From Leptospirales bacterium (GTDB taxonomy: Bacteria; Spirochaetota; Leptospiria; Leptospirales; Leptonemataceae): a DNA stretch of 64,000 nt. The stretch spans positions 1-64,000 of the forward strand of contig JAEUSB010000017.1 of assembly GCA_016788865.1 (NCBI GenBank), given 5' to 3'. The notes beneath the pieces are model-generated. The model was not told the origin of the DNA and searched no databases. It saw only the letters and a list, made by a program, of their open reading frames with translations. The position numbers were made by a program, and so were the translations under genes. Positions 28,921 through 34,936 of the stretch are shown here, in pieces. The number at the start of each line of letters is the position of its first letter. Position 1 is the stretch's first letter.

Positions 28921-31233
28921 TTAACCCCGGTTTTTGGTCTCAAGTGGATCACTTTCGCGATAGATGCGAATAAAGTTCTGATCGATATCTGTCAGCCGTT
29001 CCGTTCCGCAAAGATTCATGGTGCGAGCCAGCTCATCGCGCATCCTGGAATAGAGGAACTTTACGGCCGCCAGGTCACCGCCCACAGCGGCAATGGCCAG
29101 AGGACGGCCCACAAGGACCCCGTTTGCGCCCAGTGCAAGCATCTTGAATACATCCTGGCCCGTCCGGATGCCCCCATCCACCAGCACAGGAATTCTGCCT
29201 GCAACCACTGAGACAATTTCTGGAAGTACGCGCGCGGTGCCTGGCATATCGTCCAGCACACGTCCTCCATGGTTGCTCACCACCAGTGCTGAAACGCCTG
29301 CTCGAATTGCCTCTTCGGCATCCTCTGGTGACATGATTCCTTTCAGGATAAAAGGCAAATTCACCGAATCGCGGAGCATACGCAGCGCTTCAAAGTTTCT
29401 CGCCGTGCTGCCAAGCCGCTTGAGTTCCATTGTTCGAAATGAAATTGCATCGATGTCCATTCCAATGGCTGTCAATCCAAGCTCTTCTGCTACGCGGAAT
29501 CTTTCGAGGAGTGCTGCCTCGTCTGAGCGTGGCTTGCAGATTGCAATACCCACGCCATCCGCTTCGGCCAACGCTTTGAAAATGGTCTTATAACGATCAG
29601 GTGTGGCTCCATCGCCTACCCAGGCAATGCTTCCTGCTTCGCGGCTTGAATGAACTAGAATGCGGGCCAGGTCGTACTCGCCAATCGCGTTACGCATGTT
29701 AGTTGCCGTTCCTGTCATGGGCGCTGCCATGATCGGTGTTTCAAACTTACGACCCAGAAATTCCAGTGTTGTGTCCGGCTGCACGTTTGTGCGGATGTAA
29801 CGCGGAATAATTCTGATCTCCGCAAGGGCCGCAGCGTTGTCCTTGAAAGTATTCATACTTCCCAGGCCGCCCATTCCCGGGACTCCGCTGGCGCAATGCC
29901 CGGCGCAGCTCTTGCAAACCCAGCAAACCTGATCCCCGAAACGTTCGCGTGCCTTATCTTCCACGGATTTCCAATCCACGCTGAAAGTATCATCTACTGA
30001 TATCTGAACGCGCTTCAAGCATTCCTGTGCCGCTGCTTCAGCTTCTTCAAGAGTCGGGGCGCATGCTATGATGTGCCCGATCTTGTCAAGATTGCTTGTC
30101 GCTTCGACAACTACATCTCCTGGCTTGCGCGTAAATACTATGTGCTCGATCTTTGGAACCTGGTTCATCTCAGCAACTCCGTTGAGTTCCAGGATTTTTC
30201 CAGGTCTGGAAAGAATTCCACGTTCAATAGCCACAAAATTCTTGGTCTCTTCCAAAGAAGAAGGTTCGTCGCCCAGTGCAATCTGAACCGCAGCTTTATG
30301 TAAGTTTACGCCACTGTGCAAAGGATAAGTGTGCGAGGACATGTAACCACCGGACAGTCGGGCAGCGATTTCTCCAACCTTAATGGAATAGTTGTCGTAT
30401 GGCGCCGCATGACGGGGGTTCTTCTGACCCGGTGGCAATTTTGCGAGTTTGATATCGCCTTTCCCGGCGCCAGTATGAATGCCGAGAGCCCGCATCCCGG
30501 CTTTCATAACGTCCGCCGCCTCTTCAATCACTGATGCGGGCAGAGACGATGGCATGTTGTGTCCAAGCTCGACGAAGTAGGGTTCGCGAGCGATGATGCG
30601 ATCTGCGATTCCAGTCATTCGGATCTGACCATTCCAGGCCAGCGCATCAATCGACAATTCTGGTCCTTCCATATATTCTTCAAGGATCATTTCGCCCGTG
30701 GGACTGTGCTTCTTTGCGTGCTTGAAAGCAGCATAAATTTCTTCGCGGGCTGAAATCTTAATAACGCCGCGAGCACCCATGTTATCAGCCGGCTTTAGAA
30801 CCAGCGGGAATGTCATTTCATCCATAGCTTCGCGGGCTTCTTTGATGGACCAAACGGATCGGAAATCTGGAATTGGAACGCCATGCTGGCGAAGTCGCTT
30901 TCGCATTAGGACTTTGTTTGAAGCGGCCTCGGAGTCCGCATAACGGATACCGGGAAGATCCAGGGATCCTGCTATGGCTGCGACGGCCCTGCTGGCGTCC
31001 GTTCCTGCCGTTACTACTCCGTGGATTTGCATTGTCTCGCGGAGGCGTCGTGCTTCGCGTACGCACCCATCGATGTCGCGCGTACTCATAATGACTGGCA
31101 TATGGGCTGCTTTCATACCCGGGGCATCAGCGGTCATATCAAACACAATGGTGAAGAGGCCCATGGCTTTTGCCGTGTCGATCAGGGGCATTTGCAGCGT
31201 ACCGCCGCCAATAATAATGAGATTTCTAGCCAT
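28921..31233 (-). CDS. Fusion of ATP-grasp ligase-like domain and FMN-dependent alpha-hydroxy-acid oxidoreductase with Cys4 linker
   Basis: 770 residues, ATG 31233 with GGAGGAG just upstream. Residues 1-350: pre-ATP-grasp (IIIGGGTLQMPLIDTAK) and ATP-grasp domains, with VLKPAD (Lys147), EEYMEGPELSIDAL (185-198), Asp260 in GDIKL and Glu288 in GEIAARLSGG as candidate nucleotide/metal ligands. Residues 350-425: a further domain resembling the ATP-grasp C-terminal lobe. Cys437, 440, 443 and 447 form a CxxCxxCxxxC cluster followed by GVPGMGG, as in clostridial alpha-hydroxy-acid-oxidising proteins. Residues about 475-760: FMN barrel with SNHGGRVLDD (His655 catalytic, Arg658) and VLVDGGIRTG. Both halves look intact. 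Substrate unknown; the fusion suggests activation of an acid coupled to its oxidation, or channelling. Confidence 0.88.
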   Translation of the reverse strand: MARNLIIIGGGTLQMPLIDTAKAMGLFTIVFDMTADAPGMKAAHMPVIMSTRDIDGCVREARRLRETMQIHGVVTAGTDASRAVAAIAGSLDLPGIRYADSEAASNKVLMRKRLRQHGVPIPDFRSVWSIKEAREAMDEMTFPLVLKPADNMGARGVIKISAREEIYAAFKHAKKHSPTGEMILEEYMEGPELSIDALAWNGQIRMTGIADRIIAREPYFVELGHNMPSSLPASVIEEAADVMKAGMRALGIHTGAGKGDIKLAKLPPGQKNPRHAAPYDNYSIKVGEIAARLSGGYMSSHTYPLHSGVNLHKAAVQIALGDEPSSLEETKNFVAIERGILSRPGKILELNGVAEMNQVPKIEHIVFTRKPGDVVVEATSNLDKIGHIIACAPTLEEAEAAAQECLKRVQISVDDTFSVDWKSVEDKARERFGDQVCWVCKSCAGHCASGVPGMGGLGSMNTFKDNAAALAEIRIIPRYIRTNVQPDTTLEFLGRKFETPIMAAPMTGTATNMRNAIGEYDLARILVHSSREAGSIAWVGDGATPDRYKTIFKALAEADGVGIAICKPRSDEAALLERFRVAEELGLTAIGMDIDAISFRTMELKRLGSTARNFEALRMLRDSVNLPFILKGIMSPEDAEEAIRAGVSALVVSNHGGRVLDDMPGTARVLPEIVSVVAGRIPVLVDGGIRTGQDVFKMLALGANGVLVGRPLAIAAVGGDLAAVKFLYSRMRDELARTMNLCGTERLTDIDQNFIRIYRESDPLETKNRG

Positions 31234-31349
31234 GACTCCTCCGTAGTTTCAAGGTCGGCAAAATGGAAAAATAGCTAAGGATATTTGTCGATTGAGACGA
31301 CCGGTCGGCAGCGAGGTTGACAGGGTCCTGTGGGGGGATTTGATCCGGT

Positions 31350-32684
31350 ATGAGCGGGCGAAGTAGGTCGACACTGTTTCGCGTTCTAACGAATCCAGCT
31401 TCCCTTGCTTACTTTCGTGGTCTGGGCATCAACGCTGGCACTATTTTGCTGATCGCCTTGTTCGATCCGGTTTATGGCACTCGCGTGCAACTTGTCCCTT
31501 TTGCCGCCTTTGTTCTATATTATTCCGGTACCGGGCTCTACCTGTCGTACCGCCTGGTTCGCGGCAAACACACGCTGGAATCGTGGTTTGATTTGGCCCT
31601 GATCGTAAGCCTGCCAGTTGCCGTTTACTACGGCTATTTATCAATCGAGCTACCACCCTATGCTGTCGTATTCTGGATATGGGGAACCACCGTTGGCATG
31701 CCGGGGTTCGGCTTTATTCGTCGGCGGTTCTGGTTGATCTGGATGCTGGTCTTATTTGGCTCGAGCTCTCCTGGTTTCTTCCTGGGCACCCTTGAGCCCA
31801 GAAACGCCCTCTGGATGGTGTGGATGCTGATCCTGACCTACTACATGACGGAAACGTCGAATCATCTGAAGAAGAATCGCCGCAATCTGTCACAAAACCT
31901 GGCACAGACTAAGAAGAATCGGCGCGACCTGGACCAGGCACATCGGAAGCTCCGCGCCGCCTCGGATCGGTTTACCGACGAGCTGAAAATTGCTGGAAAA
32001 ATGCAGCAACAGCTCCTGCCGCCCCTGATTGGTGTCCATTCGAGACTGGAGTTTGTGGGACGTTATCTGGCAATGGAAAATGTGGGAGGTGATTTCTACG
32101 ACGTTATCAAGATCGAAGGAGGCGTTGCTGTCCTAATCGCTGACGTAACAGGCCACGGGGTTGCTGCATCACTGATTACCACAATGACCAAGGCCGCGTT
32201 TCACAATCACAAACTCAAAAGAAGTGCCGCAGCAATTCTCAAGGGAATGAACACAGACCTGTGCCAGTACCTCGGCGGGGGGCAGCACTTTGTGAGCGCG
32301 GCCTGCGCAATCTTTGAACCTGATTTGAACCGAATGCATTTTGCGAATGCCGGCCATCCACCCCCCATACGCATCAGACAATCAAACCTCAATTACCTGG
32401 GAGATGAGAGCCTGATACTGGGAGTTGACGTGGGACAATCCTGGAGCGATCATGTATTGGATATGGTGAAAGGGGACCGCTTTCTTTTTTACACTGATGG
32501 TGTGACCGAAACCAGATCGGATGATTTTCAGATGTATGAGGACCGCTTTAAGGAGCAGTGTCTTGCCCTTCGTGCAAATCATCCGGAACAGTTTGTCGAT
32601 GCGTTACTTCGCGACTTGACATTGTTTCGAGGGAGCGGTCCACAAACGGACGATATCGCACTTTTGTGTCTGGATGTAGTCTAG
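31350..32684 (+). CDS. SpoIIE-type PP2C serine phosphatase with membrane sensor
   Basis: 444 residues, ATG 31350. The N-terminal 180 residues contain about six hydrophobic helices, then a coiled coil (residues about 170-215, NHLKKNRRNLSQNLAQTKKN) leads into the SpoIIE/RsbU phosphatase domain: AGKMQQQLLPP, ENVGGDFYDVI with the metal Asp, LIADVTGHGVAASL, FANAGHPPP, GDRFLFYTDGVTE and TDDIALLCL. Such enzymes dephosphorylate anti-sigma-factor antagonists in partner switching. No STAS or RsbW gene adjoins it. The sirtuin gene begins 8 bases downstream. Confidence 0.92.
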   Translation: MSGRSRSTLFRVLTNPASLAYFRGLGINAGTILLIALFDPVYGTRVQLVPFAAFVLYYSGTGLYLSYRLVRGKHTLESWFDLALIVSLPVAVYYGYLSIELPPYAVVFWIWGTTVGMPGFGFIRRRFWLIWMLVLFGSSSPGFFLGTLEPRNALWMVWMLILTYYMTETSNHLKKNRRNLSQNLAQTKKNRRDLDQAHRKLRAASDRFTDELKIAGKMQQQLLPPLIGVHSRLEFVGRYLAMENVGGDFYDVIKIEGGVAVLIADVTGHGVAASLITTMTKAAFHNHKLKRSAAAILKGMNTDLCQYLGGGQHFVSAACAIFEPDLNRMHFANAGHPPPIRIRQSNLNYLGDESLILGVDVGQSWSDHVLDMVKGDRFLFYTDGVTETRSDDFQMYEDRFKEQCLALRANHPEQFVDALLRDLTLFRGSGPQTDDIALLCLDVV

Positions 32685-32692
32685 GTGAAAGC

Positions 32693-33427
32693 GTGACAGA
32701 ACCCGGCTTAGAGAACCTCGAAATTGCGCGTGGCCAGATTCGTAAGGCCCGGCGCCTGGCAGTAATCACGGGGGCTGGTGTTTCCGCAGAAAGTGGAATT
32801 CCTACGTTCCGGGGCAGCGGCGGTCTCTGGCGGAACTTTCGGGCGGAGGATCTTGCAACACCGTCGGCGTTCCAACGTGATCCAAAGCTGGTCTGGGAGT
32901 GGTACGATTGGCGTCGTGGGATTTGCAAGGCAGCAGAACCCAATCCGGGTCATTTAAGCATCGCTAAATTAGAAAGTCTTCTACCAGAGTTCCTGCTGAT
33001 CACGCAGAACGTTGATGGGCTCCACAATCGGTCCGGGAGTCGTAACATTGCCGAGATTCATGGCAACATATGGCGCGCCCGGTGCACGTTATGCGGCAAT
33101 CAATTCGACTTACTCGAGACACCGCTTTCCCGGATTCCACCGCGTTGTAATTGTGGAGGGCTTGCGCGGCCCCACATCGTTTGGTTTGGGGAAACCTATG
33201 ACGAAGAATTGTTGGAGGACGTACTGGATTTTCTCAGTGCGGCGGACACTCTCCTGGTCGTAGGAACGTCGGGCATGGTGCCAATGCCCGTCTACCTGAC
33301 GCGACATGCTATGTCGCATGGGGCATTTGCAATCGATGTGAATCCCGAGGACTCCGAGCTGACCCATGTTGTGAATATTTCACTTCGAGGCAAGGCCGGG
33401 GAGGTCCTGCCACAGATCGTCCCTTAG
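32693..33427 (+). CDS. cobB: Sirtuin (NAD-dependent protein deacylase), class III
   Basis: Removes acyl groups from protein lysines using NAD. 244 residues from GTG 32693 with AGGTGA upstream; the frame continues upstream inside the phosphatase gene but is not homologous. GAGVSAESGIPTFRG (27-41), TQNVDGLH (104-111), catalytic His123 in EIHGN, and zinc cysteines 131, 134, 152 and 154. Tyr71 and Arg74 in WYDWRR form the YxxR pair that in class III sirtuins recognises succinyl/malonyl lysine. Expected to be a desuccinylase more than a deacetylase. Confidence 0.93.
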   Translation: MTEPGLENLEIARGQIRKARRLAVITGAGVSAESGIPTFRGSGGLWRNFRAEDLATPSAFQRDPKLVWEWYDWRRGICKAAEPNPGHLSIAKLESLLPEFLLITQNVDGLHNRSGSRNIAEIHGNIWRARCTLCGNQFDLLETPLSRIPPRCNCGGLARPHIVWFGETYDEELLEDVLDFLSAADTLLVVGTSGMVPMPVYLTRHAMSHGAFAIDVNPEDSELTHVVNISLRGKAGEVLPQIVP

Positions 33428-33432
33428 CCGTT

Positions 33433-33460
33433 CGGGAAATTGCTCCCGTTCGATTTTTTT
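33433..33460 (+). terminator. Weak candidate terminator after sirtuin gene
   Basis: CGGGA-AATTGC-TCCCG (5-bp stem) starts 6 bases after the stop; five bases later a run of seven T follows. The short stem and gap make it doubtful, but it separates two independent-looking genes. Confidence 0.4.
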
Positions 33461-33526
33461 GAGCAGCCGGAGGAGGGTTTTACCCCTTCTTTCTATTGAC
33501 CTCCGGGCCCCAAGGATTTCATTCAC

Positions 33527-34936
33527 ATGGCATTTCTACAAATGGAAGCCACAAACGCAGCGCACAGTTTCCCAACGTCTCGCACCAGGCTTTTTGCCCT
33601 GCTTGTGTCGGAGTACGGGAGGATTCTCCGTCGTGAACTGTCAAAGACACCTGAGACCCTTGCCCGAGCTATGCGGGAAGGTTTTTCCTATGAATCATTC
33701 TTACGCGACCAGATGGACTTTGTCCAGGCGACCGTTGGTGAATTCGATGACGGGCCTTCCATTCTGGAAAAGATCTATATCAGGTTCGTAGACGCAAAGG
33801 TACTGGATCATCAGGATTTCGACCATATCACGGCAAAAAATTACCTGCTTTCCCTGCGGGCCCGTATTGAAGCCATCCTGGCCACAGAAACAGCGGAGGA
33901 GGAAGCGCTCAGACGTTCTGTGAATATCCTAATGAAAGTGGTTAACGCTCAGAACTCAACCTTTACGGAGTTCAATCTACGCGAAAACGCAATTCGCATT
34001 GAGCTCTTGCTAGCGCTGAAGCGGGATCTTGGCGGAGAGAATGAATTGTATAAGGAGGCACGGAACATTCTCGATCGGCATTCGCTGATTCTGATAAACT
34101 ACATGCATGAAATCTTCCTTGAACGTTTGAACGCATCACTTCAAGAAGAAAAGCGTCTTCGTGAAGAATTGGAAAAGAAGCGCCAACAAACCGAACAAGA
34201 ACTACGCATGGCTCAGAAGATTCAGGAGAGCCTGTTACCCACTTCCTTTCCGGAACACGTGGGTCTGAGGTTCTCTGCACGTTATCTGCCAATGTCCAGT
34301 GTTGGAGGTGACTTCTATGACGTGGCATCCGTTTCTCTCAAGGATGGGAGTCGGGCCGTCGGTGTAATTATCGCTGATGCTTCCGGTCATGGTGTTCCAG
34401 CAGCCTTTATTGCTGCAATGACAAAGATGGTCTGGCAAAGTAGCCTCGATGCTTGCATTGACCCTGCTGACGCACTGGGTAGAATCAACAGACAGCTCCT
34501 GGAAAGGATTTCTGGAAACTTCATTACTGTGGGTCTTGGCGTCTTTCAACAGACCTCGGAGAATCCGCGGAAGGGACTCTTTCATTTTGCCAACGGTGGG
34601 CATCCGCCGTGTATCCTGTTGCGCCACGGTGAACCACCTAGGATGCTTGAGGCTCGAGGTCGAATTATTGGGATTTTTCCTGATGTACAGGTGGAGAAAA
34701 AGGCCGTCGAATACAGGTCGGGTGATCGCTTTGTGTTTTACACGGATGGGCTAATAGAGGCGCGCATGGAAGACGGGGAGATTATTGGCGAAGAGCGATT
34801 TTTAGCTCATATCCAATCGGTTCAGCGGTTGTCTGGCGAAGCCTTTTGCGATCAGGTGATATCCTTTGTCAAGGAAAGTGCCATTGACTGTTCGCAGGAC
34901 GACGACCTGACGCTCTTCGTTGTTGACGTTCCCTGA
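33527..34936 (+). CDS. SpoIIE-type PP2C serine phosphatase, cytoplasmic
   Basis: 469 residues, ATG 33527 (a second ATG five codons on is possible). No membrane segment. Residues 1-200 are helical and unrecognised (RLFALLVSEYGRILRREL), followed by a strongly charged coiled coil about 205-230 (EEKRLREELEKKRQQTEQEL). The phosphatase domain then reads AQKIQESLLPT, SSVGGDFYDV, VIIADASGHGVPAAF, FANGGHPPC, GDRFVFYTDGLIEA and QDDDLTLFVVDV. The N-terminal half probably senses a soluble signal or docks a partner. It is the second such enzyme within 2 kb, with the sirtuin between them. Confidence 0.92.
   Translation: MAFLQMEATNAAHSFPTSRTRLFALLVSEYGRILRRELSKTPETLARAMREGFSYESFLRDQMDFVQATVGEFDDGPSILEKIYIRFVDAKVLDHQDFDHITAKNYLLSLRARIEAILATETAEEEALRRSVNILMKVVNAQNSTFTEFNLRENAIRIELLLALKRDLGGENELYKEARNILDRHSLILINYMHEIFLERLNASLQEEKRLREELEKKRQQTEQELRMAQKIQESLLPTSFPEHVGLRFSARYLPMSSVGGDFYDVASVSLKDGSRAVGVIIADASGHGVPAAFIAAMTKMVWQSSLDACIDPADALGRINRQLLERISGNFITVGLGVFQQTSENPRKGLFHFANGGHPPCILLRHGEPPRMLEARGRIIGIFPDVQVEKKAVEYRSGDRFVFYTDGLIEARMEDGEIIGEERFLAHIQSVQRLSGEAFCDQVISFVKESAIDCSQDDDLTLFVVDVP

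Follow-up and report, generated by a model that had tools for sequence, protein, structure and literature searches.

The window, a 64,000-nucleotide stretch of Leptospirales DNA, carries a gene for a 770-residue protein in which an ATP-grasp ligase is fused to an FMN-type oxidoreductase, and this fusion probably works as an enzyme in a pathway, shared across the spirochaetes, by which a nonulosonic-acid-type sugar on periplasmic flagellins is made or tailored. That the fusion itself belongs to such a pathway appears rather likely, because its ATP-grasp orthologue keeps operon company with sugar and flagellar genes and because its distribution is shared with flagellin, NeuB and spiro-SPASM. The gene and its parts are:

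28921..31233, minus strand: fusion gene encoding 770 aa, with ATP-grasp ligase, then Cys4 linker, then FMN alpha-hydroxy-acid-dehydrogenase-type barrel (sequence, Pfam, structure search)
29995..31233, minus strand: L-amino-acid-ligase-type ATP-grasp half, residues 1-413 (Pfam, Foldseek, residue alignment)
30466-30813, minus strand: ATP-grasp_4 domain (Pfam)
29995-30210, minus strand: LAL_C2 domain (Pfam)
29869..29925, minus strand: Cys4-GVPGMGG linker (C437, C440, C443, C447 ... G455), predicted as a probable Fe-S or metal site (sequence motif)
28966..29868, minus strand: FMN_dh barrel, residues 456-756 (Pfam, fold match, residues)
29260-29277, minus strand: SNHGGR catalytic segment, residues 653-658 (sequence)
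31236..31242, minus strand: ribosome-binding site GGAGGAG (sequence)

The reading frame is uninterrupted from ATG to stop, and the GGAGGAG ends 2 bases 5´ of the ATG. A convergent CAP-domain gene on one side and a divergent SpoIIE phosphatase gene on the other make the fusion gene monocistronic, in agreement with the initial annotation, which had the gene standing alone with its own ribosome site. Beyond it, at 31350-34936 of the window, a Sir2 gene lies between two SpoIIE-type phosphatase genes, with the Sir2 frame overlapping the first of these. Pfam searches with the window protein matched ATP-grasp_4 (residues 141-256, E 5e-13), LAL_C2 (residues 342-413, E 4e-19) and FMN_dh (residues 609-756, E 4e-66, 223.9 bits against a cut-off of 24.9); PF02222 scored 26.8 bits, marginally below its cut-off of 27. 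The AlphaFold model has a mean pLDDT of 90.4 and is low solely at residues 448-453 and at the C-terminus. The domains and key residues thus found bear out the earlier impression of two enzyme domains whose active sites look intact, as far as can be predicted from sequence.

The ATP-grasp half is of the L-amino-acid-ligase type, as judged from its fold and its matching nucleotide and Mg residues, and amide ligation is its predicted reaction. The whole half superposes on the L-amino-acid ligase BL00235 (PDB 3vot) with a TMt of 0.88 and also matches the ATP-grasp protein 4dim (E 4e-33; both Foldseek). Like L-amino-acid ligases, it has a LAL_C2 domain and conserved E288 and R292, which align with the corresponding ligase residues. 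However, identity to 3vot and 4dim is only ~20%, the half is fused to a flavoenzyme, and the genomic context of the fusion is one of sugar and flagellar genes rather than dipeptide synthesis. The FMN half shares the barrel of the alpha-hydroxy-acid oxidases of PF01070 (glycolate, 4-hydroxymandelate and lactate oxidase; TMt 0.76-0.84), and the catalytic residues D595, K631, H655 and R658 are all present in the window protein. It differs from these oxidases in that the Cys4 element replaces their N-terminal part, in that the region of the glycolate-oxidase active-site tyrosines, which were not found in the window protein, aligns with K567-P-R569 (by sequence alignment only), and in that some lineages have Arg or Lys in place of the catalytic His. 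These domain types support, as predicted chemistry, the earlier proposal of a carboxylic or hydroxy acid as the centre of both a ligation and an oxidation. Mycofactocin biosynthesis was rejected as a role, as the score for the pre-mycofactocin synthase MftD was 122.5 bits against the TIGR03966 equivalog cut-off of 470.85.

The Cys motif of the window protein reads C437-x2-C440-x2-C443-x3-C447, the last gap being x4 in most relatives. The Cys4-GVPGMGG element had been likened to that of stand-alone clostridial proteins, and indeed the Cys4 element and SNHGGR were found in 69/69 of the clostridial stand-alone 'alpha-hydroxy-acid oxidizing proteins' checked. Unlike the fusion, these have no ATP-grasp partner and form a separate clade, and the clostridial loci examined showed neither conserved neighbours nor an ATP-grasp gene.

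Over 81 fused loci, conservation was scored residue by residue. In the ATP-grasp half, K107, K147, E185, E192, D260, E288 and R292 were invariant (81/81), as was K631 of the FMN half, and the four linker Cys and R658 were each found in 80/81. The catalytic H655 was present at 73 loci, replaced by Arg or Lys at seven and lost at one, in Brachyspira. Neither half therefore lacks catalytic residues throughout: the FMN half is degenerate in Brachyspira only, and its His is substituted in just a few other lineages. Given that the ATP-grasp residues are invariant, that the FMN His varies and that some families have the ATP-grasp part only, the ligase half is the core of the fusion and the FMN half its variable part. 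The Brachyspira fusion (L044:7101-9251) has neither the Cys4 nor SNHGGR; a separate FMN protein in Brachyspira (L047:7998-9038) groups with the clostridial ones and was probably acquired by horizontal transfer.

The fusion is not an oddity of one genome but an old, spirochaete-wide enzyme. It was found in most of the 61 genomes searched, and its recurrence at full length and 35-94% identity in most relatives searched upholds the single unbroken protein first read from the window and argues against an artefact. The fusion or its ATP-grasp half was detected in 228 of 297 genomes at a strict threshold, and in one more (G188) at a looser one, such that nearly every flagellated Spirochaetota lineage has one or the other; the Borrelia-like genomes have neither, and the FMN half is absent from several of the ATP-grasp families. 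As family names we use the inferred labels Borrelia-like (f34), Treponema (f22) and Sphaerochaeta-like (f45). In a tree of FMN domains, the fused halves fall into a single group (support 84/64) whose branching follows the families, with the Treponema-type and clostridial stand-alone proteins outside, which fits a single old fusion event in Spirochaetota, as predicted from a tree of moderate support.

The company of the gene in relatives points to sugar metabolism. At seven loci from several Treponema-type families, an ATP-grasp orthologue, ~40% identical to the corresponding half of the fusion over its whole length, lies in one operon with genes for a spiro-SPASM radical SAM protein (TIGR04321), a 317-aa protein, a CTP_transf_3 protein (SpsF), a PseG-like protein with a methyltransferase, an amidase, a GerMN-like protein and FlaA, with the flagellar sheath gene flaA at the end. 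Four loci (L213, L214, L215 and L226) have the same operon minus the ATP-grasp gene, the fusion being located elsewhere in these lineages. In G049 only 3 bases separate the methyltransferase gene from the fusion, which comes directly after it on the same strand, and in G056 it lies ~2.5 kb from the PseG-methyltransferase gene with all genes between on one strand. Within the window no linkage of the fusion gene to a sugar or flagellar operon was seen, and in most fused genomes the gene likewise stands alone, unlinked to glycan genes, with LipB/LplA, MnmG, MnmA or MnmE as recurrent neighbours. The window's own genome has NeuB, CMP-transferase and PseG-like genes as well as flagellins: spiro-SPASM, SpsF and PseG-like genes form one operon on contig C6 (the PseG-like assignment is by operon position and a GxGH motif, with no Pfam match) and the methyltransferase gene is on C17.

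Distribution points the same way. In a flagellin search covering 297 genomes, the ATP-grasp gene was found in 0/28 genomes without flagellin and in 229/234 flagellin-positive genomes outside family f34. A looser ATP-grasp search of 20 flagellin-less genomes gave one weak match only (G199, E 1e-13), which we read as a different ATP-grasp protein. Spiro-SPASM was absent from 20/20 flagellin-less genomes and from all Borrelia-like genomes tested, and NeuB was present in 44/44 flagellated non-Borrelia, 0/5 Borrelia-like and 2/16 flagellin-less genomes. Within family f41, a flagellated genome has ATP-grasp, spiro-SPASM and NeuB, and four flagellin-less ones have none of the three. The 1.1-Mb Treponema-like genome G090 retains ATP-grasp, NeuB, spiro-SPASM and SpsF-PseG-methyltransferase. 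The Fisher values for this co-distribution are very small, but the genomes are related, and the independent events come down to about two flagellar losses and the loss of the ATP-grasp gene in Borrelia-like genomes, which kept their flagella. Together, the gene company in other spirochaetes and the loss in flagella-less ones suggest a role in building an unusual acidic sugar of the internal flagella.

An enzyme of nonulosonic-acid metabolism could also serve LPS or other surface molecules, with flagellin not the main target. Nonulosonic-acid genes serve many surface glycans, NeuB persists in two flagellin-less genomes, and Leptospira has di-N-acetylated nonulosonic acids and molecules modified with such sugars (PMC3438082). 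We nevertheless consider this alternative improbable, as ATP-grasp and spiro-SPASM disappear along with flagellin, flaA closes the operon and so small a genome as G090 retains the set. On the reading of the initial annotation, the protein would be a self-contained system that converts a free carboxylic or hydroxy acid in two steps, and the two catalytic domains in one chain and the monocistronic gene speak for this. This part did not hold up well and now seems unlikely: in relatives the ATP-grasp half shares a multi-gene operon with flaA and with sugar genes of the nonulosonic-acid type, the fusion adjoins the methyltransferase gene of that operon in one lineage, and its distribution goes with that of spiro-SPASM, NeuB and flagellin.

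The recurrent neighbours raise two further alternatives. LipB/LplA-type genes adjoin the fusion, in varied orientations, in f3, f4 and one genus of f1 (L036:6794-7984, L034, L042, L043, L060, L038-L040, L059 and L013), as would be expected of a role in lipoate or glycine-cleavage metabolism. This adjacency is missing from other families, however, the SpsF/PseG/FlaA operon would be left unexplained, and we know of no place in lipoylation for an L-amino-acid-ligase plus hydroxy-acid-oxidase fold, so that such a role is very unlikely. Least probable by our estimate is modification of tRNA wobble uridine 34 with MnmA, MnmE and MnmG, with glyoxylate release from cmnm5U as the supposed task of the FMN half; the fusion has a different Mnm gene beside it in each of three lineages (MnmG in f1, L008-L013; MnmA in f2, L014-L023; MnmE in f9, L032, L169 and L171), but MnmG beside RsmG is a common chromosomal neighbourhood, Pfam and structure searches found no RNA-binding domain in the window protein, and the Borrelia-like and flagellin-less genomes, which presumably carry mnm genes, do not have the fusion. 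For a flagellin sugar pathway, the points against are the unlinked position in the window and in most fused genomes, the roughly two independent losses behind the co-loss with flagella, the retention of flagella in Borrelia-like genomes that lost the gene, the absent or altered FMN half of some lineages, and these LipB/LplA and Mnm neighbours.

If the fusion does act on a flagellin sugar, the ATP-grasp half would activate a carboxylate as acyl phosphate and join the acyl group to an amino group of a nucleotide- or CMP-sugar, giving an amide, in parallel with L-amino-acid ligases acting on amino acids. The FMN half might then take two electrons next to a carboxylate, so that a hydroxy group becomes a keto group or an amino group an imine, with the electrons passing through the Cys4 site, and spiro-SPASM and the methyltransferase could change the sugar further. 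Taken by itself, this order of ligase and FMN chemistry is a tentative guess from fold. The FMN step would be optional or replaced in some lineages. The FMN half may also have a wider role, since it is absent or His-altered in some lineages and since its clostridial relatives are found in gut bacteria, Faecalibacterium and other Clostridia, that we take to be non-motile.

Flavin-oxidised, amide-linked acyl chemistry is, to our knowledge, without precedent in any bacterial flagellin glycan. Spirochaete flagellins do carry glycans: T. denticola flagellins bear a 450.2 Da glycan and need these sugars for filament assembly (PMC9481697). A glycan is also found on Leptospira FlaB1, with a probable role in sheath binding (PMC13144727). 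ATP-grasp_4 proteins have been linked to flagellin modification elsewhere, SfmE being required for normal modification in Shewanella (PMC3765264) and another lying within a C. difficile flagellin cluster (PMC5207246). As here, the Shewanella sfmABCDE set combines a NeuB-type synthase, a methyltransferase and an ATP-grasp_4 protein; unlike in the spirochaete set, to which we liken it by description, neither an FMN domain nor a radical-SAM protein is described for it.

We found no literature on a hydroxy-acid-oxidase/ATP-grasp fusion, no paper naming spiro-SPASM (TIGR04321) and no published account of the enzymes making spirochaete flagellin sugars. It is possible, though doubtful, that an undescribed common spirochaete pathway of NeuB, SpsF, PseG-like protein, spiro-SPASM, methyltransferase and fusion yields a flagellin sugar whose acyl group is amide-linked and flavin-oxidised. 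The genes would form a phylum-wide candidate set for the flagellin sugar that includes a ligase-flavoenzyme fusion and is retained even in the 1.1-Mb genome, and the candidate pathway becomes testable in L. biflexa. For the uncharacterised spiro-SPASM radical-SAM family, which shares both operon and distribution with the ATP-grasp orthologue but is a different enzyme, this would offer a first functional context.

Finally, the Treponema-type stand-alone FMN gene was considered as a fission product of the fusion and rejected, as it has its own fully supported clade in the FMN tree. Its neighbours are variable, and it is close to the operon in G090 only, so that we give this proximity no weight; one stretch there (L207:3736-10722) holds genes for spiro-SPASM, for a protein of 368 aa and for a SpsF-PseG-methyltransferase fusion of 862 aa, together with the stand-alone Cys4-FMN gene. 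In the Treponema-type genome G175, the stand-alone FMN gene (L243:1178-2079) is split by a stop and a frame change, indicating a pseudogene or an assembly error.
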